Virus record (IMG/VR): IMGVR_UViG_3300046457_000044
Location: 1 to 48,101 of that record
Source: a virus
Direction: 5' to 3' (one strand)
Length of the DNA stretch: 48,101 nt
Position 1 is the stretch's first letter, and every line of letters starts with the position of its first letter. Of this stretch, positions 1-47,600 are shown piece after piece. A model generated the notes under the pieces. That model was given only the letters and a program-made list of their open reading frames with translations. It was not told where the DNA came from and made no database searches. Position numbers and translations under genes: made by a program.

Positions 1-1554
1 GAGCGTGCACCAGAAGCGCCACAACAGGCTGCTGAGGCTGCACCTATACCCAAGTATGTCCCGAAGGTTGGAGACCGTGTACGGCTCGCATTCAAGCCCG
101 ATAATTTGAATGCTGCTCCGGGTTGGGTAGATCGTGTAATGGATAAGCTTCTCGATGAGCAAGTTGTTCTGACGATCAAGCGAATTATTCCGGGTAATGG
201 TTGGGTGAAGGTTGAAGAAGATGAAGATGATTTTTCATATCATCCTGCTTGGCTTGAGCTTGTTGCTCCTGTCCGTCCGTTTGCTGTTGGCGATTTAATT
301 AAACAAGTTGGAGAGCGTTTCCCGGATGTGTTTAAGGTGCTGGAGTTGCTAGACAACCATCGTATCTGCATCAGCACGGCACGGGACCATAACAAAGTTC
401 TCGGAACTTGGGATGAATATTTGTTCGAACTTGTGCGCCGTGGTAATGGCGAAGCTGTTGCAGCAAAGCCCGCTATCATCGCTCCCAAGATTGGCGAATA
501 CGTCAAGGTGGCGAAGAAGGTGGCAGGAGGCAAGGCTAAATGGCTACCCGAAATGGATGCCACGATTGGCAAGACATACAAAGTGGAACGCTTTGACGAC
601 TGGGCCAAAACCTATCAACTCTCTAACGGGTACAGCTATCTGGCTGAATGTCTTGAAATCGGCAAGAAAGAAGATGTAGAGAAGAAAAAGAAGGGACCCG
701 CGCTACGTGACCTGATTGCGCAGAGCCGTAAAGAGGATATTAAGAATGTTCGCGGTGTGTCCAGCTATGTCGTGTTCCTGAAGAACAAAAAGACTGGCGA
801 GATTACGCTTAACAAGCATCTTAGTGACGTGTGCCACGCTCGCCTTGCTGTGTATTACGGTGGACGTGATGATGTTAAGGAAGCCGTTGCTGTGATTGAT
901 TATCAGCAGGCACATGAGAAGCAAGCGCTTGCAGCAGGAAAGGGATACAAGACAAGCTATCGCAAGTTTGTCGATTACATCGTCAATCGCAGCCCTTGGG
1001 CCGTGGCATTCCAAGGCAAGACAGTAAAGAACGTATTGGAGAATGGCGTTCTCATGAACGTAGAAGCTCCGAGTGGTGCTGTAGCTGGTGCATGTCAAGC
1101 TCTGCGTTATCTGTCCGAGTTCAACGCACAAAACGCTGTGTGGAAGCTCATGATGGACAACGGCATTCAGGAAGATGCTGCATTCCTCACCACGTATGCA
1201 TTCATTGCAGAAGCCGATGGATACACCAAGCATCCGATGGGTGGCGGCCATCAGCCGATCAACGGGGAAATCTCAGCAGGCTCGCTCATTTCGTTCTTTG
1301 CCAATGGCTATGACGAGAAGTTTCTCAAGTCCACTCCCTACCGTGAACAGACGAGTTACCGTGTTCATGAGCATGTCGAGAAAGTTAAAGACGTGCTGAA
1401 GATGCCGGAACCGTATGACACTTTTGTCCTGAAGGCAACCGAATGGACGGACGTGAAAGCTAATTGGGCAGTGGTGAAGAAGGCTACTGAAGAACAAGTG
1501 ATTGCGTTTGCACGTAATCTGGAACAACTCATCAACAAGGCTCGTGCAGCATGA
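1..1554 (+). CDS. Large protein with SH3-like repeat modules, 5' end missing
   Basis: The frame is open from the first base and stops at 1554, so the N-terminus lies outside the window. A TTG at 106 is only an internal codon. The visible part starts with an Ala/Pro-rich linker, then has three related modules of about 60-70 residues. Each begins with a VGD or IGEY turn and carries an aromatic/MD element (WVDRVMDKLL near codon 40; WLPEMDATIGK in the third) and an end such as YHPAWLELV. These resemble the small SH3-like (MIB/HERC2-type) repeats found in assorted phage proteins, which probably bind a ligand or partner. The remaining 290 residues match no family I know. The stop overlaps the next start by ATGA, so it is co-translated with the amidotransferase and probably belongs to the amidoligase cluster. 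Function unknown. Confidence 0.8.
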   Translation, partial: ERAPEAPQQAAEAAPIPKYVPKVGDRVRLAFKPDNLNAAPGWVDRVMDKLLDEQVVLTIKRIIPGNGWVKVEEDEDDFSYHPAWLELVAPVRPFAVGDLIKQVGERFPDVFKVLELLDNHRICISTARDHNKVLGTWDEYLFELVRRGNGEAVAAKPAIIAPKIGEYVKVAKKVAGGKAKWLPEMDATIGKTYKVERFDDWAKTYQLSNGYSYLAECLEIGKKEDVEKKKKGPALRDLIAQSRKEDIKNVRGVSSYVVFLKNKKTGEITLNKHLSDVCHARLAVYYGGRDDVKEAVAVIDYQQAHEKQALAAGKGYKTSYRKFVDYIVNRSPWAVAFQGKTVKNVLENGVLMNVEAPSGAVAGACQALRYLSEFNAQNAVWKLMMDNGIQEDAAFLTTYAFIAEADGYTKHPMGGGHQPINGEISAGSLISFFANGYDEKFLKSTPYREQTSYRVHEHVEKVKDVLKMPEPYDTFVLKATEWTDVKANWAVVKKATEEQVIAFARNLEQLINKARAA

Positions 1555-2174
1555 AAAAGGTTTATATCGTAGGCGGCAATGGTCAGTATGCCAATCTGTT
1601 TGAAGGTCTTGGATTCTCCACTACCGGCAACATCGTAGGGGCAGATTTGGTGTGCTTCACTGGCGGGGCAGATGTTTCGCCCCACTTGTACGGGGATAAG
1701 AAACACCAGTACACAGGCAGTGACTATGCTCGTGATTCGTTTGAAATGCGTATCTTCGATCAGGCACGAGAAGCACAAATCCCGATGGTGGGTATCTGCC
1801 GTGGTGGGCAGTTCCTCAATGTCATGAGTGGTGGGCGCATGTATCAGCATGTCACCAAGCATGGCATTCACGGCACTCACGACATGATTGACGTGGAGAC
1901 AGGTGAACACATCCCTGTTACGTCCACTCATCATCAGATGTTCATGCCAAGCGATAACGCCATCATCGTTGCAATTGCTACGCTTGGCGGTGAACGTGAG
2001 TGGTATGACGGTGAAGTGTTCAAGCGGGATGTGAGCAATACGGACTACGAAGTGGTGTATTACGAAGCCACCAACAGCCTGTGTTTCCAACCCCATCCTG
2101 AATTCAATGGTGAAGGTCTTGAAGCAATGAAAGACTACTTCGCTCGTTGCCTTAACAAATACCTCGGAGTCTGA
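1551..2174 (+). CDS. Class I glutamine amidotransferase (peptidase C26-like)
   Basis: This 207-residue protein has the class I glutamine amidotransferase fold signature. The nucleophile elbow is GICRGGQ with Cys83, and the distal FQPHPEF supplies His182 and Glu184, giving a full Cys-His-Glu triad. An oxyanion-type FTGGADVSPHLYG segment lies near residues 36-47, as in gamma-glutamyl hydrolase and PuuD-like C26 enzymes. Such enzymes hydrolyse gamma-glutamyl amide bonds or release ammonia from glutamine. It overlaps the upstream gene by four bases and is followed by a small gene after one base. Its place beside two COOH-NH2 ligases and an ATP-grasp enzyme suggests it either supplies ammonia or trims gamma-glutamyl linkages made by the cluster. 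The family call is firm; the substrate is unknown. Confidence 0.9.
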   Translation: MKKVYIVGGNGQYANLFEGLGFSTTGNIVGADLVCFTGGADVSPHLYGDKKHQYTGSDYARDSFEMRIFDQAREAQIPMVGICRGGQFLNVMSGGRMYQHVTKHGIHGTHDMIDVETGEHIPVTSTHHQMFMPSDNAIIVAIATLGGEREWYDGEVFKRDVSNTDYEVVYYEATNSLCFQPHPEFNGEGLEAMKDYFARCLNKYLGV

Positions 2175-2175
2175 C

Positions 2176-2526
2176 ATGTCCCTTCTGGAAAAGCTGCTTG
2201 AGAAGCTTGGTATGTATCACTGGTGGGATGCATTCAGGAATGAAGATCATCTGCCGTGCTACATCAATCGTGCCACGGTGACGAATGACTTCAAGACCTA
2301 CTCCCACATTCGCAAGTACATCGAAGCTTGCAAGGAACAGAAGGAAGGGATGATTGGCATGCTGCTCTTTAGCGTTACAGAGCGGGATGCACACCACAAG
2401 AAGTGGCTGCATGTAGCAAAGAAGGATGGATACCAAGTTGTTCAAAGCCCAAGCATTCACGGCGATTATCAATGTTGGTCCATCTTTGTTCCGAATGACA
2501 AGCTTGGCGAAATGTACTACCGCTAA
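2176..2526 (+). CDS. Hypothetical protein, 116 aa
   Basis: Not a family I recognise. It starts at an ATG one base after the amidotransferase stop, with CGGAG just upstream as ribosome binding site. It has an amphipathic leucine-rich N-terminus (about residues 1-13) followed by a mixed charged/aromatic body with no signal peptide or membrane segment. Continuous spacing with the neighbours supports it as a real member of the amidoligase operon. Confidence 0.7.
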   Translation: MSLLEKLLEKLGMYHWWDAFRNEDHLPCYINRATVTNDFKTYSHIRKYIEACKEQKEGMIGMLLFSVTERDAHHKKWLHVAKKDGYQVVQSPSIHGDYQCWSIFVPNDKLGEMYYR

Positions 2527-2535
2527 GGGATTTGT

Positions 2536-2563
2536 CACGTCTGTACGTCTGACACTTTGTAAC
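2536..2563 (+). promoter_or_regulatory. 28-base intergenic element, copy 1 (contains GACACTTTGTAAC)
   Basis: This matches 3114-3141 at 24 of 28 positions, and both copies sit just before the ribosome binding site of the next gene. The last 13 bases (GACACTTTGTAAC, 2551-2563) recur exactly at 45177 and 47948, where they overlap the -35 box of strong promoters. No convincing -10 box follows here, so an operator, a regulatory RNA site or a relic promoter are all possible. Confidence 0.55.
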
Positions 2564-2573
2564 AGAGGATGGA

Positions 2574-2888
2574 ATGAAGAAGTACATTGCAAACCCCTAC
2601 GGCTCAGAAGTGTTCTTTACACAGGACGCCAACCTATTCAAAAGATTGGCGGGGTTTGCTGTGGAAGATGCTGCTGGTGTAACGCATTGGGATGAAAACG
2701 GAACAGCTATCATCATGTACGTTGGTGATGGATTGTTAGAGACATTGGTACATGAGTGTTGCCACGCAACTCTTTACATCTTACAGCGTGTAGGTATTGA
2801 TCCTGCATGCGGCAATGGTGAGCCGATGGCTTATTTGATTGATTCGATGTTTGCCTGTTTTAAAACTGAATTTAAGGAAACGAAATGA
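2574..2888 (+). CDS. Small putative zinc metallopeptidase (HECCH motif)
   Basis: A 104-residue protein with a zincin signature: His60-Glu61-Cys-Cys-His64 inside a hydrophobic helix (LETLVHECCHATLYIL), followed about 19 residues later by a Glu (E83, in GNGEPMAYLID) that could be the third metal ligand, as in gluzincins. Small one-domain HExxH proteins with this Glu are known in phages, but their substrates are unknown. AGAGGATGG lies upstream of the ATG. The stop overlaps the next start. Because it sits inside the amidoligase cluster, it may process or remove peptide products. That role is inferred from position only. Confidence 0.7.
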   Translation: MKKYIANPYGSEVFFTQDANLFKRLAGFAVEDAAGVTHWDENGTAIIMYVGDGLLETLVHECCHATLYILQRVGIDPACGNGEPMAYLIDSMFACFKTEFKETK

Positions 2889-3112
2889 TTAAGGTAGTGA
2901 ATTTGGCGAATGTGCCTACGGTATCGCGCGACCAAATGATTCCGGGGAAGGCATACAACAGAGAGAATGGTGCAGTTATTGTAGTAGGGCGAAATAGCGT
3001 TGTTGCTCTTTTCCGAGAGGACGGCTCTTTTGACACAGTGGATATGAAATATCTCGATTCACGTCAATGCTATAACGAAGTAAATTTGGAAGTGAAAGCA
3101 ACAAAGGCATAA
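2885..3112 (+). CDS. Hypothetical protein, 75 aa
   Basis: It starts at an ATG overlapping the upstream stop (ATGA arrangement, 2885-2888). Its predicted strands resemble a small beta barrel: MIPGKAYNR, GAVIVVGRNSVVALFRE, DGSFDTVDMKYL. I do not recognise a family. It is followed by the second copy of the 28-base intergenic element and then the class II amidotransferase. Confidence 0.65.
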   Translation: MIKVVNLANVPTVSRDQMIPGKAYNRENGAVIVVGRNSVVALFREDGSFDTVDMKYLDSRQCYNEVNLEVKATKA

Positions 3113-3113
3113 A

Positions 3114-3141
3114 CACGTCCATACATCGGACACTTTGTAAC
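3114..3141 (+). promoter_or_regulatory. 28-base intergenic element, copy 2 (contains GACACTTTGTAAC)
   Basis: Second copy of the element at 2536-2563, with four mismatches, all in the first 15 bases; the GACACTTTGTAAC half (3129-3141) is identical. It ends 17 bases before the ATG of the class II amidotransferase. A sigma-70 promoter is not convincing here because any -10 box would fall on the start codon. Confidence 0.55.
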
Positions 3142-3158
3142 TTAACAGGATAGAAACT

Positions 3159-4526
3159 ATGTGTGGCATCGTCGGGATAGCAGGTGAGCTGGATGCGAAA
3201 GCAGACAAGGTACTGAAGCATTTGTTGATTTTTGACACTGTACGTGGAGAAGATTCCACTGGTGTTGCCAGTGTTGGCCGCCACAATGAAGATGTTCTCG
3301 TGGCTAAGACGCTTGGTTGTCCGCATGAACTGTTCGAACATCGTTTGTACGGCAAGGCAATTACTGGGCGTCAGAACCGTGTTGTCATCGGCCATAACCG
3401 ATATGCCACATCTGGTGGTGTTAGCAAGGCAACAGCACACCCGTTCGAGTTTGACACGTTGGTAGGAGTCCATAACGGAACCCTGCACAACAAGCATGTG
3501 CTGGACAACGCTGGTGACTACAAGGTGGACTCGGAAAACCTGTATCACCACATTGAGAAGAATGGCTTGGATGCTGCAATCAAAATCATCCGTGGTGCTT
3601 GGGCTCTCGTGTGGTGGGACAAGGAAGATGAAACAATCAACTTCCTGCGTAACAAAGAACGGACGTTGTACTACTGCGTCAACGAAGCAGGCAATCAGTT
3701 GTACTGGGCATCTGAAGCATGGATGCTAGAGATTGCTCTGGGCCGTAACGATATCAAGCACAAGGGAATCCAGATTTTCGAAGAAGATTTCCTTCATTCG
3801 ATTCCTGTAGCTAAGGGCGGAAAGCTTGGCAAGCCAATGCTTCGAAAGATCGTGAACGATCCTGCTCCCGTAGTTGTTCATCAACAGGGGAGGGTATATG
3901 ACAATCGCCACTCTTTTACGAAGGGGACTACTACTGGTTCTAACGGCAGCGAGTCCCCTAAGAACAATGTGGCGAAGCTTGAGAAGCCTGCTAACGCAAA
4001 GATAGACAGCCGTAGCAAGGTTGATGCGGAGTTCATGCAGGCAAAAAAGCTGGTATTGGAAGCCGTAGTGGTGGTGCAGGAAAAGAGTGGAGCAGAGTAC
4101 GTGCTTTGCTTCTGTCCTGATAAGCCCTTCTACGAAATCCGGCTGTACGTTCATAGCAAGCACAAGGTTCAGCAGGATATTGGCTGTGAGTTCGAAGGGG
4201 ATATCAGTGGCTTCGTTCAGACAGAGAGCGAAGGCGTTGGGTATTACAAGGTGAGCCCGCATGGAATCGTCATCACAGCTACAGCAGATGCGAATGCATG
4301 TACGGCTGTTGGCACTGTTGGTGAGTACCTAACCCATGATGGCAAGTACCTCGGCAAGGCAGATTGGGAAGCAGCGTATGGCACCTGTGCCTTTTGTGGG
4401 GACAACATCGAAGCAGATGACATGCTGGACAAGGGCGCACGTCTTACCAAGACTGGTGATGCGCTGTGTGGTGGTTGTATGGAAGACCCTGAAATCAAAC
4501 AGTACGTTAACACGGTGGAAGTCTAA
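3159..4526 (+). CDS. Class II glutamine amidotransferase with C-terminal zinc ribbon
   Basis: The N-terminal ~200 residues are an Ntn-type glutaminase domain like those of PurF, GlmS and AsnB. Seen are MCGIVGIAG (catalytic Cys2 after Met removal), RGEDSTG (29-35), GHNRYAT (78-84), HPF (94-96), GVHNGT (103-108) and WASE (183-186). No phosphoribosyltransferase, SIS or synthetase domain follows. Instead comes a low-complexity linker (about 225-280), an unassigned region, and a four-cysteine zinc ribbon (C410, C413, C437, C440). The domain would release ammonia from glutamine for a separate acceptor enzyme, plausibly one of the neighbouring ligases. The ribosome binding site is AGGA, 11 bases before the ATG. 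Confidence 0.9.
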   Translation: MCGIVGIAGELDAKADKVLKHLLIFDTVRGEDSTGVASVGRHNEDVLVAKTLGCPHELFEHRLYGKAITGRQNRVVIGHNRYATSGGVSKATAHPFEFDTLVGVHNGTLHNKHVLDNAGDYKVDSENLYHHIEKNGLDAAIKIIRGAWALVWWDKEDETINFLRNKERTLYYCVNEAGNQLYWASEAWMLEIALGRNDIKHKGIQIFEEDFLHSIPVAKGGKLGKPMLRKIVNDPAPVVVHQQGRVYDNRHSFTKGTTTGSNGSESPKNNVAKLEKPANAKIDSRSKVDAEFMQAKKLVLEAVVVVQEKSGAEYVLCFCPDKPFYEIRLYVHSKHKVQQDIGCEFEGDISGFVQTESEGVGYYKVSPHGIVITATADANACTAVGTVGEYLTHDGKYLGKADWEAAYGTCAFCGDNIEADDMLDKGARLTKTGDALCGGCMEDPEIKQYVNTVEV

Positions 4527-4543
4527 TTTCTAAGGAGTAGTAC

Positions 4544-5338
4544 ATGACTAAAATTCTCGTAGGCTGCGATCCTGAAGTGTTTGTGAAGAAGGATGGCGTA
4601 TTCAAGTCGGCACATGGTCTTATCAAGGGGGATAAGAAGAACCCTCAGAAGATTCATCGTGGTGCTGTTCAAGTGGACGGTATGGCGTTGGAATTCAATA
4701 TTGACCCGGCTGCAAGCGAGGATGAATTCTGTCTCAATGTGCAAGACGTTTTCGCAGCAATGTGTGCAATGGTTCCGGGATATGAAGTGGTGGCAACTCC
4801 AGTGGCTCACTTCGATCCTGAGTACATGAAAGCCCAACCGGAAGAAGCAAAGGAGCTTGGCTGTGATCCTGACTTTAATGCATGGACTGGGATGGCTAAC
4901 CCGCGTCCTAATGGCGATCGTTCTTTCCGTACTGCTTCGGGCCACGTTCACATCGGTTGGACGGATGGGGTGGACGCAGCATCGGGAATTCATCTGGCGC
5001 AAGCTAATGCGGTTGTCAAGCAGATGGACTTTTACCTCGGCCTTCCGTCCTTGCTCTATGACCCGGATAGTGAGCGCCGCGAAATGTATGGCAAGGCTGG
5101 CGCATGCCGATACAAGAGCTACGGGGTGGAGTATCGCACTCTGTCGAATGCTTGGCTCAAGAGTGAAACGCTGATGCGTTGGGTGTTCCGTTCGGTTCAG
5201 CGAGGAATGCAAGACCTAATGAATGGCAAGGCTCTCGTTGACACGTTTGGTGACGTGCAGGAAGTTATCAACACGTCGAATGTCACGGAAGCGAAAGCTA
5301 TCATCAAACACGCAAAGTTGGAGGTTGCACATGCTTGA
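4544..5338 (+). CDS. phiEco32-like COOH-NH2 ligase, type 2 (glutamine-synthetase fold)
   Basis: This 264-residue protein matches the phage type-2 COOH-NH2 ligases. GCDPEVFV (Glu11) opens the sheet, VDGMALEFN (44-52) supplies a second acidic group, ASGHVHIGW (131-139) carries paired histidines, and CRYKSYGVEYRTLSNAW (188-204) carries Arg189, Glu196 and Arg198. By homology to gamma-glutamyl-cysteine ligases it would use ATP to join a carboxylate to an amine. AAGGAG precedes the ATG. The stop overlaps the next, very small gene. In phiEco32-like phages it occurs together with the type-1 ligase, an ATP-grasp enzyme and amidotransferases, as here. The natural substrate is not known. Confidence 0.88.
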   Translation: MTKILVGCDPEVFVKKDGVFKSAHGLIKGDKKNPQKIHRGAVQVDGMALEFNIDPAASEDEFCLNVQDVFAAMCAMVPGYEVVATPVAHFDPEYMKAQPEEAKELGCDPDFNAWTGMANPRPNGDRSFRTASGHVHIGWTDGVDAASGIHLAQANAVVKQMDFYLGLPSLLYDPDSERREMYGKAGACRYKSYGVEYRTLSNAWLKSETLMRWVFRSVQRGMQDLMNGKALVDTFGDVQEVINTSNVTEAKAIIKHAKLEVAHA

Positions 5339-5444
5339 AGCTGTTCTATTTTGGGGATTCCTTGTTCCGTGCTGTGTTGGTGTTTGGGGGCTTGCTATTG
5401 CCGCGTTGTTCTGCGTGTATAAGTTGTTTACGGAGGGCTTCTGA
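5331..5444 (+). CDS. Single-pass membrane peptide, 37 aa
   Basis: The ATG at 5331 overlaps the ligase stop and is preceded by a strong GGAGG (5320 region). The stop overlaps the next ATG (TGATG). Nearly the whole peptide is one hydrophobic segment, with two adjacent cysteines, a Glu near the N-terminus and KLFTEGF at the C-terminus. Translational coupling on both sides argues that it is real. It may place the cluster, or its product, at the inner membrane; that is inference. Confidence 0.7.
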   Translation: MLEAVLFWGFLVPCCVGVWGLAIAALFCVYKLFTEGF

Positions 5445-6037
5445 TGCCGCACGAAATGAGTATTGACGATATTCGGCAGAAGTTCGAAGGCTCTGTTGTG
5501 ATGTACCAGAAGAAGCCTGTGTTGTTCAAGAAGGTGGGCGGTGATTTCTCCTGCCGCATCTTCGATTTGATGGCACAGACGGAAGCACAGGTTGAATTCG
5601 ATATGAAGGCATTCCAACCGCCTCCTTCCCGAATCGGCTTTGTCAACATCAACGGCAGTGTGTTGTACGCAGTGCGTAATGCCATCCGTCGCTACAAGCT
5701 TGGAATCTCGAAAGAGAATTTCAATGTTCAGCAACTGCCTGTCCCGTACCCGGATGGACGTTCTGACGTGTATATCCGGCTCGTGGCGGGCTTGGAGAGG
5801 CGTGAGCTAGGGGAGGCTATCCTGAACAAGTATCCAACCCTCCAGCAGGCGATTCGTCGTGTCAGTCAGTTTGAAGGGGCTTGTGCTTTTGACAAGCAAT
5901 TCGCAATCGACCATCACCATCTTGTTTATTACAAGACTGCACAAGTAGGCCTTTTTATTGGTGGCGTCATTAAGTTTGACGAAGGCTTTGAACATCTTCA
6001 TCTTCTTCTGAACAAAGGCTATGAAAAAAGTAATTGA
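5444..6037 (+). CDS. Hypothetical protein between the two amidoligases, 197 aa
   Basis: Not recognised. It starts at the ATG overlapping the membrane peptide stop and ends 17 bases inside the type-1 ligase. The protein is soluble and mixed alpha/beta. It has a DGRSDVYIRLVAGLE segment near residues 104-118 and histidine pairs near the C-terminus (DHHHLVYY). Its position between the two ligases and its overlapping ends make it a likely functional partner in the cluster. Confidence 0.75.
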   Translation: MPHEMSIDDIRQKFEGSVVMYQKKPVLFKKVGGDFSCRIFDLMAQTEAQVEFDMKAFQPPPSRIGFVNINGSVLYAVRNAIRRYKLGISKENFNVQQLPVPYPDGRSDVYIRLVAGLERRELGEAILNKYPTLQQAIRRVSQFEGACAFDKQFAIDHHHLVYYKTAQVGLFIGGVIKFDEGFEHLHLLLNKGYEKSN

Positions 6038-7070
6038 GTTGTTGGGCTGCAAGAGCCAACGTGGTGACATTGGCATTGAGATTGAATGCGAAGGCGACAA
6101 CATGATTGCGCTAGATGAAGCTGTTTGGCGCAGTGAGGATGATGGGAGCTTGCGAGGACACTATCCTCAAACTCGTTGTGAGTACATCTTGGCGAAGCCG
6201 CTAAAGATTGAAGCTATCCCGGTAGCCCTTACTGAGTTGTCAAAACGGTTGAAAGAAGCAAATGCAGTGCTTGACTTCAGTCATCGATGCAGCGTGCATG
6301 TGCATGTGAATGTCCAGCAGCTTGAGTATCAACAGCTTCTGGCCTTCATGTACACCTACTACCTGCTCGAAGAACCGTTCATGACCTATTGCGGCAAGAG
6401 TCGTAAGGGAAACAACTTCTGTCTACGCCTTCAGGATGCCGAAGGGGTTCTTGAGGTTGTGAATGCGATGTTTGAGAACGGTGAAGAAGGCATTCACCAC
6501 ATCGGACAAGACCGACAACGCTATGCCGCAATGAACTTTGAAGCTCTACGGAAGTATGGCTCGCTGGAGTTCCGTGGCATGGAAGGCAACATGGACGTGA
6601 ATCGTATCAGTACGTGGTGCCAAGCATTGATCCGTATGCGTGATTTTGCAGTCAAGCTGGACAATCCGCAGAAGGTGTTTGACCTGTTCCAACAGCTTGA
6701 CCCCGTTGCATTCATTGATGCTGTGTTGGGAGACATTGCTAGTGAATTCCAGTATGCACGACTGATTAAAGATGTTCAGAAATCCTTCTCGATCAGTCTC
6801 GATCTTCCGTTCAAGTTTGCTGATTTCCTTAAGCGTCCGAAGGATGATGGGGAGTACAAGCTGGGGCAGCTTGTGTCGTATGACGTAGCTGTTCGTATTG
6901 CTCGTAAGGGGTATCAACTCGACTACGGCCCTGATGGAATGTACAAGATTGTGGTGCTTCCGCCTAGGAAGAAGGTTGCTATGCCTAAGGCTGCATTTGC
7001 TCCGGTTGGTGGTTGGGCTGTCCAACCGAACATTATTCACGATGAAGTAGAAGCGAACCCGGAGTGGTAA
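6021..7070 (+). CDS. Amidoligase, type 1 COOH-NH2 ligase (glutamine-synthetase fold)
   Basis: The 349-residue protein shows the amidoligase pattern in order: GIEIECEG (18-25, acidic metal/ATP site), DGSLRG (41-46), CEYILAKPL (53-61), SVHVHVNV (91-98, paired histidines), YAAMNFEAL (168-176) and GSLEFRGMEG (180-189, Glu-Arg pair). These correspond to the ATP-binding and catalytic strands of gamma-glutamate-cysteine-ligase-like enzymes, which form amide bonds with ATP. The start is inside the upstream gene, and its TAA overlaps the ATP-grasp ATG (TAATG). It pairs with the type-2 ligase at 4544 and is probably part of the same peptide- or conjugate-making pathway. Confidence 0.9.
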   Translation: MKKVIELLGCKSQRGDIGIEIECEGDNMIALDEAVWRSEDDGSLRGHYPQTRCEYILAKPLKIEAIPVALTELSKRLKEANAVLDFSHRCSVHVHVNVQQLEYQQLLAFMYTYYLLEEPFMTYCGKSRKGNNFCLRLQDAEGVLEVVNAMFENGEEGIHHIGQDRQRYAAMNFEALRKYGSLEFRGMEGNMDVNRISTWCQALIRMRDFAVKLDNPQKVFDLFQQLDPVAFIDAVLGDIASEFQYARLIKDVQKSFSISLDLPFKFADFLKRPKDDGEYKLGQLVSYDVAVRIARKGYQLDYGPDGMYKIVVLPPRKKVAMPKAAFAPVGGWAVQPNIIHDEVEANPEW

Positions 7071-7807
7071 TGAAAATCTATCCGTATATGAATGGCAGCA
7101 AGAGCGCTAAGGCGTTGGCTGAAGGCTTGGGTATCAAGGTTCTCTTGCGAGAGGGCAAAGCAATGCGCCGTCACAAGATCATCAACTGGGGTTGTTCCAA
7201 GATTCTTCGTGATGTTGGTGAAGATATTCTCAACCATCCGGGAGCAGTGGGACATGCCGCTAACAAGCTTGTCACGTTTGAATTGTTTCGGGATGCTGAA
7301 GTTCCTACGGTGGAGTGGACTACAGACTCTGCACAAGCAGAAGTGTGGCTGCATGAGCCTTCTAATGTAGTTGTTCGGCACAAGCTCACAGGTCATAGTG
7401 GAGAAGGTATTCAAATTCTCGAATGGGACAAGGGACATGAAGTTCCTCAAGCCCCTCTCTACACCAAGTACACAAAGAAGAAGGATGAGTACCGGATTCA
7501 TGTGTTCGGTGATGAAATCCTTTTCCAACAACGTAAGGCACGTCGAAAGGAAGTTCCTGATGACCAAGTTAATTGGCAAGTACGTAATCTTGCTGGTGGC
7601 TTCATCTTTGCAAATGATGGGGTTGAAGCTCCTGAAGCTGTCAAGCAAGCTGCCACCAAAGCTGTTGCAGCGCTTGGTTTGGATTTTGGTGCAGCGGATA
7701 TCGGCTTTAAGGACGGTGCTGCTGTCGTATATGAAGTGAACACGGCATGTGGCCTTCAAGGAAAAAATCTTGAAAGTTATGTCAATAAGTTCCGTGAATA
7801 CCTGTAA
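7070..7807 (+). CDS. ATP-grasp ligase of the amidoligase cluster
   Basis: I place the start at ATG 7070, which overlaps the upstream TAA and has GGAG six bases before it; an in-frame GTG at 7064 is less likely. The 245-residue protein carries ATP-grasp features: Lys66 near the linker, VVRHKLTGHSGEGI (101-114) as the flexible Gly-rich loop, KDEYRIHVFGDEI (138-150), and the metal-binding end AADIGFKDG...YEVNTACGL (Asp210, Glu222, Asn224). Such enzymes activate a carboxylate as acyl-phosphate and join it to an amine or thiol. It is the last of the five core enzymes of the cluster. Phage-type ATP-grasp is confident; the substrate is unknown. Confidence 0.9.
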   Translation: MKIYPYMNGSKSAKALAEGLGIKVLLREGKAMRRHKIINWGCSKILRDVGEDILNHPGAVGHAANKLVTFELFRDAEVPTVEWTTDSAQAEVWLHEPSNVVVRHKLTGHSGEGIQILEWDKGHEVPQAPLYTKYTKKKDEYRIHVFGDEILFQQRKARRKEVPDDQVNWQVRNLAGGFIFANDGVEAPEAVKQAATKAVAALGLDFGAADIGFKDGAAVVYEVNTACGLQGKNLESYVNKFREYL

Positions 7808-8283: not shown

Positions 8284-9945
8284 ATGGCAGGGATTTGCGT
8301 AGAAAAAATTGCCCATGATGATCCTAAATGCGGGGCACATGCCCTACAGATTTTCATGGCAGAGGATGGGACGTACAACGGATTCTGTTTCTCGTGCGGA
8401 GCATATTCGGCTGATCCGTATAAGGACAAACCGAAGGACTATAAGCCTGTAGTTGTTCGAAAAACCCAAGAGCAGATCGATAAAGAGATTGCGGAAATCT
8501 ATGACTACCGTACTGTGGCTCTACCTGAGCGTAAACTTCGTGCTGACTCTCTTGAGTATTTTGGTATCAAGATCGGAGTTAGTGAAGAGGATGGCACTAC
8601 TCCAGTTTCTCATTACTATCCTTACTACCTTGATGGTGTGCTTGTTGGGTATAAAGCCCGTGTAATTCAAAACAAGCAGATGTGGAGCATTGGAGATTGC
8701 AAAGATGTTGACTTGTTCGGTTGGAATGAAGCGGTTGCAGCAGGTGGTAAAACCCTCTACATCACGGAAGGCGAATGTGATGCAGTTGCCCTCTACCAAA
8801 TCTTCAAGGACAAAGCGAGAGGCTCCCAGTACGCAGACCTTAACCCCGCCGTTGTATCTGTACCTCATGGGGCAGCAGCAGCAGCAAAGGACCTTACTAA
8901 ACTAAAGGCAAAGATTGATAGAGTCTTTAAGGAAGTTGTGTTCGTATTCGATACGGACAAAGCTGGTGAGGAGGCTGTTGAGAAGTGCATGGTTGTGTTC
9001 CCGAATGCTAAGAGTGCTGTTCTTCCCGGCAAGGATGTGAATGATTGCCTCATTAAAGGGAAAGGCATTGCGGCATTCAACGCTATCCGATTCAACGCCA
9101 CCAAGCCGAAGAACACACGTCTGGTATCGGTAGCCTCTGTTGTTGAAGCGGCCCGTAAGCCTGCTGAATGGGGGTTTAGTTATCCGTATCAGAAGCTTAC
9201 AGAAATTACTCGTGGTCAACGTCTTGGTGAAGTGACCTATTGGGGTGCTGGTGTGAAGATGGGCAAGAGTGAATTACTCAATGCCCTTGTAGCGCACAAC
9301 ATCACGGAGCATGGTTGGAGTTGCTTTGTTGCTAAGACAGAAGAAAGTAATGCCCGTACTTTGCAAGGCGTTGCAGGAAAGATTGTCAACAAGATTTTCC
9401 ATGATCCTAAGATTGAATTCGACTTCCCTGCATTCGATAGGGCAGTAGGGGTTATTGATGAAAGATTGTTGATGCTAAACCTGTACCAAGAGTTGGGATG
9501 GGAAGTCTTGAAGGATGATATTAAATCCGCGGTGGCTGAAGGGGCCAAGGCAATTTATGTTGACCCAATCACTACGTTCACAAACGGAGTGAATGCTGCT
9601 GATGCCAACACTATGCTTCAGAAGATTTGCCAAGAGCTTGCTTCTATGGCAGCCGATCTTGGATTTGCAGCAAACCTGTTTTGTCACCTTAAATCTCCAG
9701 ATGCAGGCTTGCCGCATGAACGTGGTGGGCAGGTTCAGTCCTATCAGTTTGCAGGCTCACGAGCAATGATGCGTTCGGCGCATTGCATGATTGGGATGGA
9801 AGGTAACAAAGACCCGGACCTTCCAGAGCTTGAACGCAATCTTCGTACTCTTGTTGTATTAGAGAATCGGTACACAGGACAGACAGGCAAGATACCTCTG
9901 TACTACGATGGCGCAACAGGAGCTTTTAACGAACTTAGGAATTAA
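8284..9945 (+). CDS. DNA primase-helicase (T7 gp4-like)
   Basis: The 553-residue protein combines both activities of the phage replisome. An N-terminal zinc-binding module (C5, C16, C35, C38, the last two in FSCGAY) should read primer sites. A TOPRIM primase domain follows, with TEGECDAVAL (Glu162) and VFDTDKAGEE (Asp223/Asp225). A DnaB/RecA-type helicase domain ends the protein, with Walker A GAGVKMGKSE (321-330), Walker B AIYVDP (Asp427) and a C-terminal FAGSRAMMRSAHCMIG segment. AAGGAGAGG precedes the ATG. It should unwind DNA ahead of the phage polymerase and make RNA primers. Size and order match T7 gp4 (566 residues). Confidence 0.95.
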   Translation: MAGICVEKIAHDDPKCGAHALQIFMAEDGTYNGFCFSCGAYSADPYKDKPKDYKPVVVRKTQEQIDKEIAEIYDYRTVALPERKLRADSLEYFGIKIGVSEEDGTTPVSHYYPYYLDGVLVGYKARVIQNKQMWSIGDCKDVDLFGWNEAVAAGGKTLYITEGECDAVALYQIFKDKARGSQYADLNPAVVSVPHGAAAAAKDLTKLKAKIDRVFKEVVFVFDTDKAGEEAVEKCMVVFPNAKSAVLPGKDVNDCLIKGKGIAAFNAIRFNATKPKNTRLVSVASVVEAARKPAEWGFSYPYQKLTEITRGQRLGEVTYWGAGVKMGKSELLNALVAHNITEHGWSCFVAKTEESNARTLQGVAGKIVNKIFHDPKIEFDFPAFDRAVGVIDERLLMLNLYQELGWEVLKDDIKSAVAEGAKAIYVDPITTFTNGVNAADANTMLQKICQELASMAADLGFAANLFCHLKSPDAGLPHERGGQVQSYQFAGSRAMMRSAHCMIGMEGNKDPDLPELERNLRTLVVLENRYTGQTGKIPLYYDGATGAFNELRN

Positions 9946-10007: not shown

Positions 10008-10190
10008 ATGAGCATTTTGGAGAATTTGCACGACATGTCGCACACCTACCGAATCAATCCTGAAACCTACGAAGAAGAAGTAGAACGGCGATACCTAGAC
10101 CACAAGAAGCGGAAGAAAGAGCGTGATGAACGGCTGAAGCTTAAGGAAGCCGCGCTTCTTGAGGAGGAAAATGACGAATCAAGTAATTGA
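10008..10190 (+). CDS. Small charged coiled-coil protein
   Basis: The frame from ATG 10008 gives 60 residues, nearly all of them charged and helical (a long Glu/Lys/Arg run in the second half), so it probably forms a coiled coil or binds a partner. An alternative ATG at 10035, with GGAGA ten bases upstream, would give 51 residues. The end overlaps the sigma factor by 20 bases. The 62-base gap before it contains one copy of GCTATCATCA (9989-9998), a motif repeated in the early intergenic regions. Confidence 0.55.
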   Translation: MSILENLHDMSHTYRINPETYEEEVERRYLDHKKRKKERDERLKLKEAALLEEENDESSN

Positions 10191-10656
10191 AGAGTTCTAT
10201 GCAAAGAATTTTAACAACCTTGTCAAGAAGCTCACCTTCCGTGCAGGAACACCTTGGGATGCTGAAGATGCAATTCATGATGCGTTTGAGCGAGCAATCA
10301 AGTATTTTGCTTCCTTCGATCCAGACAAATCTACCTTTCCTATGTGGTTTAATCGCATCCTTGTCAATGCGATAAAGGACCATTACAACCGTAACCAAGG
10401 GCGCAATGATGTTGAGTTCGAAGAAGATATGGTTGATGGGATTCCTTGTGGGCATTATGCGGATAAAGTTGTTGCTGAAATCCGTGAACGAATCACAACC
10501 CGTAAGCCCCACATTGCCGAAATCCTGCATCTATTCTTCGAGAAAGGATATGGAGCAAAGGACATTTCACGCATGGTTGAAAGCTCCCATATTGCAGTTA
10601 ATCAAACCATCTTCCGTTTCAGGGAAGAACTACGGAGGGACTACCTCAACGAGTGA
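10171..10656 (+). CDS. ECF-type RNA polymerase sigma factor
   Basis: I choose ATG 10171 because GAGGAGG lies four bases before it. The 161-residue product has the two-domain layout of group 4 (ECF) sigma factors. Region 2 is residues 6-75, with WDAEDAIHDAFERAI (29-43) contacting core polymerase and WFNRILVNAIKDHYNR (59-74) forming the -10 recognition helix. A short acidic linker follows. Region 4 is residues 110-157, with a helix-turn-helix of the form GYGAKDISRMVESS...QTIFRFREELR. By analogy with phiEco32 gp36 it should direct host RNA polymerase to late phage promoters. No phage RNA polymerase is present, which makes this role more likely. The stop overlaps the polymerase GTG. Confidence 0.85.
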   Translation: MTNQVIEEFYAKNFNNLVKKLTFRAGTPWDAEDAIHDAFERAIKYFASFDPDKSTFPMWFNRILVNAIKDHYNRNQGRNDVEFEEDMVDGIPCGHYADKVVAEIRERITTRKPHIAEILHLFFEKGYGAKDISRMVESSHIAVNQTIFRFREELRRDYLNE

Positions 10657-12551
10657 AAGTCCGAATATTCGATACTGAGGCTAACAACCTATACCCTGCT
10701 GTAGATAAGATTCATTGCGGCGTATTCACAAGCCTTGACGGCAAGGAAGTAGATAAATTCAGTCCAGACACACATGATGCGTTCACCCCTTGGCAAGATG
10801 CCATGTGTGCCTTCATGGACTCCTGCGATGTTCTGATTGGTCACAACGTCATTGGGTATGACTTCCCGATGATGAAGAAGGTGCTTGGATATGTGTACAA
10901 GGGGAAGGTGGTTGATACCCTGCTCATGTCTCGTGCACTCAACCCTAAACGTTTTCTTCCTCCACATGCGAAAGATCGTAGAGCAGGTCCTCACAGCATT
11001 TATGCTTGGGGCGTTAGAGTTGGGGTTGATAAGCCCGAACACGAAGATTGGGAGAACTATTCTCCTGAAATGCTTCACCGATGTACAGAAGATGTAGAAA
11101 TCAACCGACTCACCTACCACGCCTTGATGAAGGAGGCGGCTGAGTCTGGTGGGAAGTGGAGGGACGCATTCCTCCTGACGTTCAAGCTTTTCCAGAATCT
11201 CCAAGAGCAAGAGGAGTATGGCTGGTACGTGGACAAGCAGAAAATGCTTGACAACATCGTTGAACTTGAGCAGCTTATGCAAGAGATTGATGATGAAGTG
11301 ATTCCTCAACTGCCTAACATCCTTGAGATTTTGGAGGTAAAGAAAGATGGACAAGTCAACTGGGTACGGAAGCCGTTCCTCAAAAGCGGCAAGCCTTCTG
11401 AATCGACTAGCAAACATTTTGGATTGGACGGGAGTGCTTGCGTTGGTGGCCCCTATAGTCGTATTGCTTTTCGCCCTGTTGATCTAAACAGCCGTAACGA
11501 GGTTGTTGAGTATCTTCTTAAGGAGGGTTGGGAACCCCTAGAATGGAACTACAACGATGATGGAGAAAGAACGTCGCCTAAGCTTTCTAAGGATGATCCA
11601 TTCGAAGGCGTGGAAGGCGAGGTTGGAAAGCTTGTTTCCAAACGAGTGCAGTGTAGGCATCGAAAATCTCTCGTTGAAGGCTTACTTGAGCTTGTGCGAG
11701 ACGATGGACGTATACCAAGCAGCATTGCCGGGATGGCTGTTACCGGACGAATGCAGCACAGAAACATTGTCAACATCCCCGCTGCAAAGAGTTTCTTCGG
11801 AAAGCAACTCCGAGAAATGTTCTCCTGTCCACCCGGAAAGGTACTCGTATCTACTGATTCCGATGGAAACCAACTAAGACAACTAGCAGCCCGGATGAAT
11901 GATCCGGCTTACATTGAGGCATTGTGTAATGGAGACAAAGACAAAGGAACTGACCTCCATTCGGTCAATCAACAGGCAGCTAATCTCCCTGATCGTGACT
12001 CTGCCAAGACATTCATTTACGGATTCTTGTTTGGAGCCGGAGATGCGAAGATTGGAAAGATTGTTAAAGGAAACGCTGCAAGAGGTAAGCAACTTAAGGA
12101 ACAATTCCTCAGAGGCCTTCCAGCATTGGGAGCACTCCTAGACAGGCTCAAAGCGGAATGGCGTAGCACAGCACGAAAGAAGTTCAATTCGAAATACGGA
12201 CGTGTAGAGTATTTCGACGGCATCATCACTGGCTTGGACGGTCGTCCTATCAAGGTCAGTTCAGAGCATCAAATCCTTGTGTATCTTCTCCAGTCAGACG
12301 AAGCAATTCAAATGTCTGCTGCGTACAACTACGCCATTGCAAAACTTAAACGAAAGTATCGTTACGGAGAACAGGTGCATGTTATCTGTTTCTACCACGA
12401 TGAATTCACGTTTGAATGCGATGAAGATATTGCAGAGGATGTAAAGAAAATCACAGAGGACGCTATTGCTTGGGCAGGGCGTTTCTACAACATCGCTTGT
12501 CCTCACGTAGGTCAGGGCAAGATTGGTAAAAACTGGTACGAGGTTCACTAA
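10653..12551 (+). CDS. Family A DNA polymerase with 3'-5' exonuclease (T7-like)
   Basis: It starts at GTG 10653, overlapping the sigma stop (GTGA). The 632-residue protein has proofreading motifs IFDTEANNL (Asp7, Glu9), GHNVIGYDFPMM and CTEDVEINRLTYH. Polymerase motif A is STDSDGNQLRQL (Asp402), motif B is RDSAKTFIYGFLFGAG (Lys452, Tyr456), and motif C is FYHDEFTFE (His582-Asp583-Glu584). It copies phage DNA with the primase-helicase. It is about 70 residues shorter than T7 gp5, so an equivalent of the thioredoxin-binding loop may be reduced or absent. Tyr456 corresponds to the T7 residue that gives low discrimination against dideoxynucleotides. Confidence 0.97.
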   Translation: MKVRIFDTEANNLYPAVDKIHCGVFTSLDGKEVDKFSPDTHDAFTPWQDAMCAFMDSCDVLIGHNVIGYDFPMMKKVLGYVYKGKVVDTLLMSRALNPKRFLPPHAKDRRAGPHSIYAWGVRVGVDKPEHEDWENYSPEMLHRCTEDVEINRLTYHALMKEAAESGGKWRDAFLLTFKLFQNLQEQEEYGWYVDKQKMLDNIVELEQLMQEIDDEVIPQLPNILEILEVKKDGQVNWVRKPFLKSGKPSESTSKHFGLDGSACVGGPYSRIAFRPVDLNSRNEVVEYLLKEGWEPLEWNYNDDGERTSPKLSKDDPFEGVEGEVGKLVSKRVQCRHRKSLVEGLLELVRDDGRIPSSIAGMAVTGRMQHRNIVNIPAAKSFFGKQLREMFSCPPGKVLVSTDSDGNQLRQLAARMNDPAYIEALCNGDKDKGTDLHSVNQQAANLPDRDSAKTFIYGFLFGAGDAKIGKIVKGNAARGKQLKEQFLRGLPALGALLDRLKAEWRSTARKKFNSKYGRVEYFDGIITGLDGRPIKVSSEHQILVYLLQSDEAIQMSAAYNYAIAKLKRKYRYGEQVHVICFYHDEFTFECDEDIAEDVKKITEDAIAWAGRFYNIACPHVGQGKIGKNWYEVH

Positions 12552-16799: not shown

Positions 16800-17557
16800 T
16801 GACACGAATCGTTGTAATTCCTGATACTCAAGTTCATGCTGGTGTTGATATCTCGTATCTCAATCACATCAGCCAATACATCTGTGAGAAGAAGCCGGAT
16901 TATGTTGTACACATTGGCGACCATTGGGACATGCCTAGTCTGTCCAGTTATGATTTCGGGAAACGTCAGTTTGAAGGTCGTCGGTATCGCACTGATGTTG
17001 ATGCTGGCAACTACGGTATGGACGTTCTCACTCAACCCATTGTAGACGAGGTAGCACGCCTTGAACGTAATAAGAAGAAGCGTTGGAATCCTAAGCTGCA
17101 TTTCCTCTTGGGCAATCACGAGAATCGTATCTCCCGCGCAGTGGATAACGATGCAAAGCTTGAGGGTGCTATTGGCCTACATGATCTTAGCCTTAATGGG
17201 TGGACTGTTAATACTTTCCTTGATCCTCTCTTTCTCCACGGTGTTGCATTCAATCACTACTTCACAACTGGATTGGCTGGGCGACCGGCTTCAACCGCTT
17301 CTGCTCAGCTTAACAAGCAGCACATGAGTTGCATTGCAGGGCATCAACAAGGTTTGCAGATTGCCACTGGCAAGCGTGCCGATGGTGCTCTCCTAACTTC
17401 GGTGATTGCAGGCTCTGGCTACCCGCATGAAGAAGCCTATCTAGGTGCACAAGGGAACAAGCATTGGCGTGGAATCCTTGTCCTGAATGATGTGCATGAT
17501 GGTGAATTTGATTTGATGCCTGTCTCGCTAAAGTATCTGGAAAAGAAATATAACTAA
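16799..17557 (+). CDS. Calcineurin-like metallophosphoesterase
   Basis: A strong GAGGAGG stands before the ATG. The 252-residue protein contains the metallophosphoesterase series: VIPDTQVH (Asp9, His13), HIGDHWD (GDxxD), LLGNHENR (GNHE), LFLHG and AGHQQG (final GH). These bind two metals and cleave phosphomono- or diesters. Phages carry such enzymes in nucleotide or DNA metabolism, but the substrate cannot be told from sequence. It lies directly before the ribonucleotide reductase large subunit and overlaps its start by one base. Confidence 0.88.
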   Translation: MTRIVVIPDTQVHAGVDISYLNHISQYICEKKPDYVVHIGDHWDMPSLSSYDFGKRQFEGRRYRTDVDAGNYGMDVLTQPIVDEVARLERNKKKRWNPKLHFLLGNHENRISRAVDNDAKLEGAIGLHDLSLNGWTVNTFLDPLFLHGVAFNHYFTTGLAGRPASTASAQLNKQHMSCIAGHQQGLQIATGKRADGALLTSVIAGSGYPHEEAYLGAQGNKHWRGILVLNDVHDGEFDLMPVSLKYLEKKYN

Positions 17558-19398
17558 TGATTAATATTGATATTAAACGGGATGACAACTTCAATGAACA
17601 AGGACGCACGCTACTTTCGAAATATTATTCGGATGGCCGAGAGGGAATCCAGAAAGCCATTGCTCGTGCAGCCAACTGCTTTAGCTATGGGGATGAAGCC
17701 CTTGCTCAGCGTATCTATGACGCTGCCTCTAAGCATTGGTTCTTCTATAGCTCGCCAGTGCTTAGCAATGCTGTGGAAGGACATTGGATTACGCCTGAAG
17801 AAGTAGGAAAGAACTACTGGAAGATGCCTTGGTTTTGGGAGCAAGGCTTTGACCGTAAGCAATTCTGGAATGGAGAGCTTCCTAAAGCCATGCCCATTGC
17901 CTGCTTCGGTGGCTATGTACCTGACACTATTCAAGGACAGATTGATGTTAGTAGCGAGCTTGCTTTGCTTAGCGTTATGGGTGGTGGCACTGCCCTTCAT
18001 TCCGGCATTAGAGCCGTATCGGAGAAAGCTCCGGGACCGATTCCCTTCTTTAAAACGGTGGATGGGATCATGGGGTATTACCGTCAAGGTCGTACTAGAC
18101 GCGGTAGCACTGCTTTATATCTTGACATTTCTCACCCTGACATTGTGGAGTTTATCAATATCCGTAAGCCCAGTGGGGGAGACATTGCCCGTAAAATCAA
18201 CAACCGTCCCGGTGTGCATAACGCGGTAAACATCACAGACGCTTTCAAGGAAGCTGTAGACCAAGACGCAGATTGGGAATTGATTTGCCCACACACGAAG
18301 AAAGTACACCACACCCTCAAGGCTCGTGAGCTTTGGGAACAACTACTAGAAACAAGGGAACTAACTGGTGAGCCTTACCTGTATTTCATTGATGTTGCTA
18401 ACCGTGCTTTGCCTGTATCTCAGCGTGCTCTCGGCCTTACGAACAAAGGTAGTAATCTTTGTAGTGAGATTACGCTCGCTACTGACAATCTTCGCACTTT
18501 TGTTTGCTGTCTTAGCAGCCTTAATCTAGAGAAATATGATGAGTGGAAAGACACAAATCTTGTGGCTGATTTGGTTCGCTTTCTTGACAATGTTGTTCAA
18601 TGGTTTATCGATTACGCTCCTAACGGCCTCCATCGTGCTATTTATAGCGCAAGTAGGGAGCGCGCCCTAGGCATCGGTGCTATGGGGTTTCACAACTACC
18701 TAATGTCTAAAGGCATCCCCTTTGAATCTGGAGGCTTTAACAGTGCTGCTCAACACAACCATACAATCTTTAAGCACATCAATAGTCAAGGAATTGACGC
18801 TTCTATCCGGCTTGGTGGGGAGCGTGGGGAAGCTCCCGACATGGAAGGCACTGGTCGTCGTAACTCTCACGTTTTCGCTATTGCTCCTAATAGTAATTCC
18901 AGTGTCCTTTGTAATACGAGCCCTAGTATTGAGCCTATTGCTAGTAACGCGTACACTCAGAAAACTCGTGCAGGCATTTACCTCGTAAAGAACAAATGGC
19001 TTGAGCCAGTGTTGGAGAAGTATGGAATCAATACCGAGGAAACTTGGCAGTCTATTGTTCGTAACAACGGAAGCGTCCAGCATATCGAAGCACTTCCAGT
19101 TGAAGAAAGGAACGTCTTTAAAACTGCATGGGAAATCGATCAACACTGGGTTATTGAACATGCTGGCAACCGTCAACAATTCGTCTGCCAAGCACAGTCT
19201 CTCAATGTATTTTTCCTTCCCGGCTCAAATCGAGAATATATTAATTCTGTGCACCTGAAGGCAATGAGGGAAGGGAAGATTAAGAGCATGTACTACTTCC
19301 GTACAGGAGCCGCTAGTAAGGCTGATACGGTTAAAACAATTCAACGTGTTGTGCTGAATCAAGAGAGCGCAACAGCATGTCTATCCTGTGAGGGCTAA
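17557..19398 (+). CDS. nrdA: Class I ribonucleotide reductase, large (alpha) subunit
   Basis: The 613-residue protein has the catalytic set of a class I alpha subunit. The NLCSE motif gives Asn300, thiyl Cys302 and Glu304. The redox pair is Cys116 (PIACFGG) and Cys317 or Cys318 (FVCCLSS). The radical-transfer tyrosine pair lies in SMYYFRT near the C-terminus, and a CLSC tail (Cys608, Cys611) would re-reduce the active site. E. coli NrdA is 761 residues; the shortening is at the N-terminus, which starts close to the catalytic barrel with no recognisable ATP cone. Allosteric activity control by dATP may therefore be missing, useful for a phage needing many dNTPs. It works with NrdB at 19719. 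Confidence 0.96.
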   Translation: MINIDIKRDDNFNEQGRTLLSKYYSDGREGIQKAIARAANCFSYGDEALAQRIYDAASKHWFFYSSPVLSNAVEGHWITPEEVGKNYWKMPWFWEQGFDRKQFWNGELPKAMPIACFGGYVPDTIQGQIDVSSELALLSVMGGGTALHSGIRAVSEKAPGPIPFFKTVDGIMGYYRQGRTRRGSTALYLDISHPDIVEFINIRKPSGGDIARKINNRPGVHNAVNITDAFKEAVDQDADWELICPHTKKVHHTLKARELWEQLLETRELTGEPYLYFIDVANRALPVSQRALGLTNKGSNLCSEITLATDNLRTFVCCLSSLNLEKYDEWKDTNLVADLVRFLDNVVQWFIDYAPNGLHRAIYSASRERALGIGAMGFHNYLMSKGIPFESGGFNSAAQHNHTIFKHINSQGIDASIRLGGERGEAPDMEGTGRRNSHVFAIAPNSNSSVLCNTSPSIEPIASNAYTQKTRAGIYLVKNKWLEPVLEKYGINTEETWQSIVRNNGSVQHIEALPVEERNVFKTAWEIDQHWVIEHAGNRQQFVCQAQSLNVFFLPGSNREYINSVHLKAMREGKIKSMYYFRTGAASKADTVKTIQRVVLNQESATACLSCEG

Positions 19399-29584: not shown

Positions 29585-30031
29585 TTAAATCTCCTTGACT
29601 AGAACAACCTCCAGAGGGGCATAGCCAAGACGTTCAAGAATCTTACGCAGAGGAGAAGTGAGAGGAGAGTTCCATGCCATCAGGTCTGCTCCTGTTACTT
29701 TTGCGTGCTCTACAGTTTTCTTGATAAGTCTTATTCCCAATGGGGTATCTCTAAATAAAGGATCAACGTATAGGGCATCGTTGTTGCAAGTGACATGTCC
29801 TTTGGAATGTACGTTGGGAGCTATAACATTCACGGAATAGCCAACGATCAATCCATCATAGAACGCAAACAATCCGAAAGCGGCATTGCTTTGTTCCATC
29901 TGTCCATACACTGCAAAATCAATGTCTACCTTCCGCTGAGTCTGTCCATACACTTCTTCCCAGTGCTGTTCGAACAAGTCTTTCAGTGTGTAGAGCGTAG
30001 GCAGGAGAGGTAGTTGTTTGATTTCAACCAT
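29585..30031 (-). CDS. GNAT-family acetyltransferase
   Basis: A 148-residue protein with GNAT layout: FGLFAFYDGLIVGYSVN (strands 2-4), NNDALYVDPLFRDTPLGIRLIKKTVEHAK (the acetyl-CoA loop in the variant form RDTPLGIRLI instead of the usual Q/RxxGxG/A, then helix 3), and LGYAPLEVVLVKEI (last strand). AGGAATCG precedes the ATG. Small GNAT proteins appear in many phage tail or ejection gene blocks, perhaps acting on a virion or host protein. A possible late promoter lies directly upstream. Confidence 0.8.
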   Translation of the reverse strand: MVEIKQLPLLPTLYTLKDLFEQHWEEVYGQTQRKVDIDFAVYGQMEQSNAAFGLFAFYDGLIVGYSVNVIAPNVHSKGHVTCNNDALYVDPLFRDTPLGIRLIKKTVEHAKVTGADLMAWNSPLTSPLRKILERLGYAPLEVVLVKEI

Positions 30032-30056: not shown

Positions 30057-30086
30057 TATTTACCTATTTAATTGTTGAATTGTTAC
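30057..30086 (-). promoter_or_regulatory. Candidate phage-sigma late promoter, site B
   Basis: On the minus strand GTAAC (30086-30082) is followed after exactly 19 bases by TAAATA (30062-30057), 26 bases before the GNAT ATG. The same pair with the same spacing occurs at 36460-36489 and 44762-44791. The GTAAC here also lies in one arm of the hairpin at 30083-30110, so its identity could be partly due to that stem. Confidence 0.5.
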
Positions 30087-30110
30087 GTAAGAGCCTAAGC
30101 CCTTACGCAA
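30083..30110 (-). terminator. Strong hairpin after the tail tube B gene
   Basis: A 12-base-pair stem (TTGCGTAAGGGC paired with GCTCTTACGTAA, two G-U pairs) with loop TTAG covers the stop codon of the 765-residue tail gene. No U tract follows on either strand, so it may slow ribosomes, protect the mRNA or act as a processing site rather than as a classical terminator. Confidence 0.5.
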
Positions 30111-36459: not shown

Positions 36460-36489
36460 TATTTATCCCTTGAGAGAGCAAAAAGTTAC
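36460..36489 (-). promoter_or_regulatory. Candidate phage-sigma late promoter, site A
   Basis: In the 182-base gap (36350-36531) between the AT-hook protein gene and the scaffold gene, the minus strand has GTAAC (36489-36485), 19 bases, then TAAATA (36465-36460). The same arrangement occurs at two other leftward gaps. It would give an extra start for scaffold and capsid, which are needed in largest amounts. The rest of the gap is AT-rich with no gene. Confidence 0.6.
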
Positions 36490-36531
36490 GAAAATATTTA
36501 AAATAAATTTTGTAGTAAATTCTGACGGAAG

Positions 36532-44714: not shown

Positions 44715-44761
44715 GTAAATCCTCCTCTTTGTTTACATAAGCATTTATCGGCCATAAGACA

Positions 44762-44791
44762 TATTTATTACTTAGGGAGCCATTTGTTTAC
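44762..44791 (-). promoter_or_regulatory. Candidate phage-sigma late promoter, site C (holin side)
   Basis: On the minus strand GTAAA (44791-44787), 19 bases, then TAAATA (44767-44762), 48 bases before the holin ATG. It has the same two boxes and spacing as sites A (36460-36489) and B (30057-30086), with A for C at the last base of the first box. It is well placed to drive the whole leftward late operon. Confidence 0.6.
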
Positions 44792-47593: not shown

Positions 47594-47600
47594 ATAGAGA

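Follow-up and report, generated by a model that had tools for sequence, protein, structure and literature searches.

A phage-encoded ECF-type sigma factor and its candidate late promoters in a virus with Zobellviridae traits

Introduction

How does a phage that carries no RNA polymerase of its own switch on its structural genes? The question is raised by the window analyzed here, the whole 48,101-base stretch of an IMG/VR virus record, in which a sigma factor gene lies within the replication operon. For the Zobellviridae, it has been noted that transcription must be regulated differently in the absence of a phage RNA polymerase; phiEco32 was cited in this regard, and the late switch was left open (PMC9960094). 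In the literature that we searched, we found no paper mapping promoters in this family.

Results

Genome organization

Replication and metabolic genes of the window are carried on the plus strand and structural genes on the minus strand. The genes relevant here are the following:

1551–7807, plus strand: phiEco32-like amidoligase cluster (Pfam and PHROGs), upstream of the sigma gene
1551–2174, plus strand: C26 peptidase/GATase, amidoligase cluster member
3159–4526, plus strand: GATase, amidoligase cluster member
4544–5338, plus strand: COOH-NH2 ligase, amidoligase cluster member
6021–7070, plus strand: amidoligase, amidoligase cluster member
7064–7807, plus strand: ATP-grasp protein, amidoligase cluster member
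8284–9945, plus strand: primase/helicase (phrog_239, E=4e-152), upstream of the sigma gene
10008–10190, plus strand: small ORF between primase/helicase and sigma gene, overlapping the start of the latter
10171–10656, plus strand: predicted ECF-type sigma factor, 161 aa (Pfam, TIGR02937, PHROGs, AlphaFold2)
10653–12551, plus strand: family A DNA polymerase, whose first bases overlap the 3′ end of the sigma gene

The amidoligase cluster is matched by PF14395, PF12224, and glutamine amidotransferase profiles, and by phrog_3815/7469/2599/4736. A search for a single-subunit T7-type RNA polymerase (PF00940) came up empty in the window and in 17 other records, whereas it detected the T7 positive control; likewise, no RNA polymerase was found in the relatives G1, G2, and G3. 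Gene order and the PF00940 search therefore bear out the original prediction, made from the sequence of the window, that a sigma gene sits in a replication operon of a phage without its own RNA polymerase. The phiEco32-like amidoligase cluster in a smaller genome (48 kb versus 77.6 kb), which it had also proposed, was found as well. The window displays the gene order, the split of replication and late blocks between the two strands, the family A polymerase, and the lack of an RNA polymerase that are traits of Zobellviridae. Its start truncates the first ORF, and G2 and G3 hold ~3.5 kb extra, with only short ORFs, between the positions equivalent to its two ends; the record is thus probably incomplete at positions 1 and 48101.

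The sigma factor

ORF 10171–10656 gives a stop-free translation of 161 aa, and a strong ribosome-binding site, GAGGAGGAAA, lies immediately 5′ of its ATG. According to the original prediction, the protein has sigma regions 2 and 4 joined by a short linker and should be recognized by profiles of both. Region 2 is matched by PF04542 (Pfam, E=1.9e-11, over the cut-off), the TIGR02937 “sigma70-ECF” profile covers residues 8–156 (E=3e-14, exceeding the curated cut-off), and phrog_1740, “RNA polymerase sigma factor” in PHROGs, also matches (E=6.5e-16). Region 4 taken alone has no significant Pfam match in the window protein, and its match is marginal in the homologs of Vibrio phage 1.253.O and CW02; the profile search thus succeeded for region 2 and for the ECF architecture as a whole, but not for region 4 by itself.

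The AlphaFold2 model, built on 46 aligned relatives, contains confident helical domains at residues 1–75 (sigma2) and 98–159 (sigma4) and a disordered linker at 78–93. Its top Foldseek matches are almost all ECF sigma factors, among them Mycobacterium tuberculosis SigH, Escherichia coli sigmaE, AlgU, and SigW. The predicted sigma4 domain superimposes on the solved SigD sigma4 at 2.1 Å, and the predicted sigma2 domain on the solved E. coli sigmaE sigma2 bound to a −10 element at 2.3 Å. TM-scores of the whole model are low because it leaves the relative placement of the domains unfixed. Profiles and model together agree with the proposed domain architecture: regions 2 and 4 are present and are separated only by a short linker, without region 1.1 or region 3, as in ECF (group 4) factors. 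On sequence and predicted structure, therefore, the window protein is an ECF-type (group 4) sigma factor.

Distribution of the sigma gene and its association with amidoligases

The original prediction also held that few phages encode such a factor. We retrieved sigma homologs from 34 GenBank phage records (tblastn) and matched 50 IMG/VR loci, in addition to 24 records with a split form; the collection scan was seeded with a 6-member sigma alignment, since a 16-member alignment was too diverse as a seed. The order amidoligase cluster, primase/helicase, sigma, DNA polymerase is common in Zobellviridae (CW02, PA11, Klyazma, CVT22, GP100, and oyster-associated genomes) and is often already annotated. 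The presumed rarity is unsupported, because many Zobellviridae typically show this arrangement and several records have it annotated. The sigma gene and its position are thus already known in this family; the new element is the predicted promoter map, or regulon.

It had further been suggested that the sigma and amidoligase modules may travel together. They do co-occur in most genomes checked, and a ligase lies upstream of sigma in nearly all IMG/VR loci with sufficient upstream flank. Yet either can occur alone: the sigma gene is present and the COOH-NH2 ligase absent in Vibrio phages 1.253.O and PS32B.1, and Vibrio phage 1.208.B has the ligase but no detectable sigma, while VpV262 and SIO1 have neither. 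Since each is found without the other, they do not form one travelling module, and their co-occurrence looks like inheritance within the family plus loss.

The 24 split-form records, nearly all from vibriophages (the PS32B group, 1.264.O, VPMCC5, and T4S1-k141_776450), encode the sigma2 and sigma4 halves in two overlapping ORFs, an organization conserved down to ~50–63% identity. In PS32B.1 (L081:2764-3323, or 17263–17822 of the record), the halves are joined by an ATGA overlap, and the same phage has several copies of a (C/T)GAGGG-17-ACTATAT site. The split gene is a candidate two-subunit phage sigma.

Candidate promoters in the window

Three candidate late promoters were predicted:

44743–44772, minus strand: PL1, AGTAAT-17-GATAAAT, immediately 5′ of the first late gene (44502–44714, minus strand)
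36461–36490, minus strand: PL2, CGTAAC-17-GATAAAT, in a gap of ~180 nt upstream of the scaffold and major capsid genes
30058–30087, minus strand: PL3, CGTAAC-17-GGTAAAT, between a tail appendage gene and ORF 29585–30031, which is followed downstream by the ejection-protein genes

Each lies on the late strand, within a gap, where a late gene group begins. The pattern NGTAAY-17-GRTAAAT was taken from the scaffold site and relaxed once conserved copies were known; it occurs three times in the window versus an expectation of 0.03, which is somewhat optimistic given this relaxation, and none of 100 dinucleotide shuffles reached three. The elements of PL1 are kept in G1, G2, and G3 with a varying spacer, and PL2 and PL3 are conserved in G1 and G2, which hardly differ from each other at the scaffold site and therefore count as one there. 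In relatives at ~70–85% nucleotide identity, both blocks are kept and the spacer drifts. Most sigma-encoding relatives use the same position as PL2. Long ungapped similarity to the sequence upstream of the window scaffold gene was not significant for the window, G1, or G2; only the bipartite form is. Upstream of the helicase-sigma-polymerase genes, a search for a middle promoter in the window clade returned only weak or unconserved candidates.

Host-type promoters are candidates for the early genes:

47946–47974, plus strand: sigma70-like early promoter candidate, TTGACA-17-TACAAT, conserved in G3
47814–47843, plus strand: sigma70-like early promoter candidate, TTGACA-18-GATACT
45175–45203, plus strand: sigma70-like early promoter candidate, TTGACA-17-TATTGT, divergent from PL1

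The total of sigma70-like matches in the window is no higher than in shuffles. Positions 47470–48101 form an extended non-coding region for early control that holds sigma70-like promoter candidates in tandem and is strongly conserved in G3. Clustered TGTAAC/GATGTAAC repeats occur there, accounting for 6 of the 19 TGTAAC of the window, and are possible operator sites for some regulator. A direct repeat, TGACACTTTGTAAC, is found at 2550–2576, within the amidoligase cluster, and at 45176–45202, in an early promoter candidate.

Sites in other sigma-encoding genomes

Most sigma-encoding genomes have a gap of ~130–180 bp upstream of scaffold that holds a two-part motif. Its spacer is 17 nt in nearly all and its −10 element is near RGTATAT, whereas the −35 element varies between lineages (TGTAGG, TGTAGA, TGACCC, TGACAC, TGAAAC, TGTGAC, GTAAC, GGTAAG, and TTGTAC). 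In a 40-nt copy test, the scaffold site recurred within its own genome far above shuffled queries (p≤0.01) in nine genomes: T2S2 (32/40), CVT22 (34 and 33), KZY1_1027853 (33), Vibrio 1.253.O (33), T4S1_462158 (31), GP100 (29), Klyazma (28), CW02 (27), and Pecta (26). This crude test alone was not significant for the window, PA11, or KZY1_1938105. The second copies sit in gaps and at comparable places between genomes. The commonest lies within the early block, antisense to the early genes and directed at the late block; in Vibrio 1.253.O, a copy at 465 precedes the late block. In six relatives, a sense copy stands before primase/helicase-sigma-polymerase or before small genes ahead of them. The positions are as follows:

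Antisense early-block copies: CW02, 46119; T2S2, 3691; GP100, 5503; KZY1_1027853, 5830; CVT22, 44146; Klyazma, 45539; Pecta, ~46173; T4S1_462158, 5629
Sense copies: CW02, 7086; T2S2, 12055; GP100, 14302; KZY1_1938105, 13981; T4S1_462158, 12265; Vibrio 1.253.O, 34858

CVT22 has a third strong copy of the motif (L011:23237-23278, minus strand), between the 3′ ends of two gene blocks and directed antisense into the late block.

An automated search of 11 further genomes found repeats in G004, G005, G006, G008, PS32B.1, and G013; the last seemingly duplicates T4S1_462158, so that 5 of 10 independent further genomes were positive. The same search yielded nothing in G007, G009, G010, G011, and G012, in some cases owing to AT repeats, a mis-set gap, or tRNA genes. 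No repeat clearly over the null was seen in three relatives lacking a detectable sigma; the best repeat of sigma-less SIO1 was marginal and precedes the capsid gene by 818 bases.

Discussion

A phage sigma as the probable late switch

The scenario that we consider probable is that host core polymerase carrying the phage sigma transcribes the late genes from PL1, PL2, and PL3, without a phage RNA polymerase. Early genes would be transcribed by the host sigma70 holoenzyme, from the candidates at 45175, 47814, and 47946, and the sigma factor would be produced along with the replication operon. It would then bind host core RNA polymerase and steer it to bipartite promoters specific to the phage; in this way, the genes for structure, packaging, and ejection would come on after those for replication. 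Both the phage sigma as the reader of these sites and their late timing are what we infer. Across 17 genomes, a Mantel test gave no significant correlation between divergence of sigma region 4 and that of the −35 element (r=0.12, p=0.15); the attribution of the sites to the sigma thus draws on co-occurrence, position, and precedent.

Alternatively, the bipartite sites may be promoters read by a host holoenzyme, with sigma70 or a host ECF sigma and maybe a phage activator at the −35 element, while the phage sigma acts elsewhere. A −10 element near GTATAT/TATATA and a 17-nt spacer would suit sigma70 too, the −35 element TGACAC of Vibrio 1.253.O is near TTGACA, and the Pecta sites (GAAACTT-15-GTCTAT) look like E. 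coli sigmaE promoters. Yet the −35 element is near-constant within a genome and strongly different between genomes (TGTAGG, TGACCC, CGTAAC, TGAAAC, CGAGGG), a difference for which a conserved host sigma70 would offer no explanation, and the repeats were seen in sigma-encoding genomes but not in the three sigma-less relatives. We regard a host holoenzyme as an unlikely reader.

It is quite improbable that the sigma serves mainly replication-operon or autoregulatory (middle) transcription, with late genes only partly dependent on it. The sense copies of the six relatives fit such a role, but the copies shared by most genomes lie upstream of scaffold and before, or directed at, the late block, and no middle copy was found in the window. 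That the repeats are other conserved elements, serving packaging, replication, or RNA structure, is hardly credible: they do sit in AT-rich gaps, some of which hold other repeats or tRNA genes, but they keep a fixed orientation to genes at the scaffold site, a mostly constant 17-nt spacing, and two separate conserved blocks around a drifting spacer, and they lie not far upstream of the start codons of late genes.

Returning to transcription of the late genes by the phage sigma, a broader and more tentative proposal, which we find somewhat doubtful, is that Zobellviridae sigmas and their promoters have co-diversified into lineage-specific late codes with a near-constant 17-nt spacer; through the promoter often found within the early block and directed against it, the onset of late transcription may also silence early genes by antisense transcription, and a promoter ahead of the sigma operon may provide positive feedback. 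With the three exact candidate sites, and the lineage-specific ones of cultured relatives, late switching can be tested using purified E. coli core polymerase. Should late switching by the phage sigma be confirmed, Zobellviridae would provide a series of diverged sigma-promoter pairs that are possibly orthogonal.

Comparison with known systems

The closest counterparts are the sigmas of other Zobellviridae, namely, CW02 gp21, PA11 gp012, CVT22 gp45, and Klyazma orf044, from phages of Salinivibrio, Pseudomonas, Citrobacter, and Klebsiella, respectively. They are homologous to the window sigma, similar in length, and found in the same setting, with an upstream amidoligase cluster, late genes on the opposite strand, and no phage RNA polymerase; however, identity to the window protein is only ~22–38%, and the −35 element is lineage specific. 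Bacterial ECF sigmas (E. coli sigmaE, M. tuberculosis SigH, and BldN) share the two-domain sigma2/sigma4 fold and are the best structural and profile matches, but the window sigma is phage encoded and shorter, and no anti-sigma partner was identified for it.

The phiEco32 gp36 protein, with which the original prediction had compared the window sigma, is an apt reference: it belongs to phrog_1740 (E=1.9e-45), as does the window sigma, and gp36 and gp47 of Salmonella phage 7-11 drive late genes with host polymerase (PMC8948821). Like the window, phiEco32 has an amidoligase cluster and no T7-type polymerase, although its gene order differs. A profile of 16 Zobellviridae sigmas missed gp36 at E≤0.01; the two are thus only remotely related. 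Moreover, gp36 reportedly has no region 4 homology and reads a single-element promoter, tAATGTAtA (PMC8948821), whereas the window sigma has region 4 and its predicted sites are bipartite with a 17-nt spacer. In 7-11, host core polymerase with gp47 uses bipartite late promoters, GTAAtg-16-aCTA (PMC8948821). GTAA is the −35 core there and in the predicted sites of the window, while spacer, −10 element, and phage group differ. Judged by predicted promoter form, 7-11 gp47 is therefore a closer functional analog of the window sigma than gp36.
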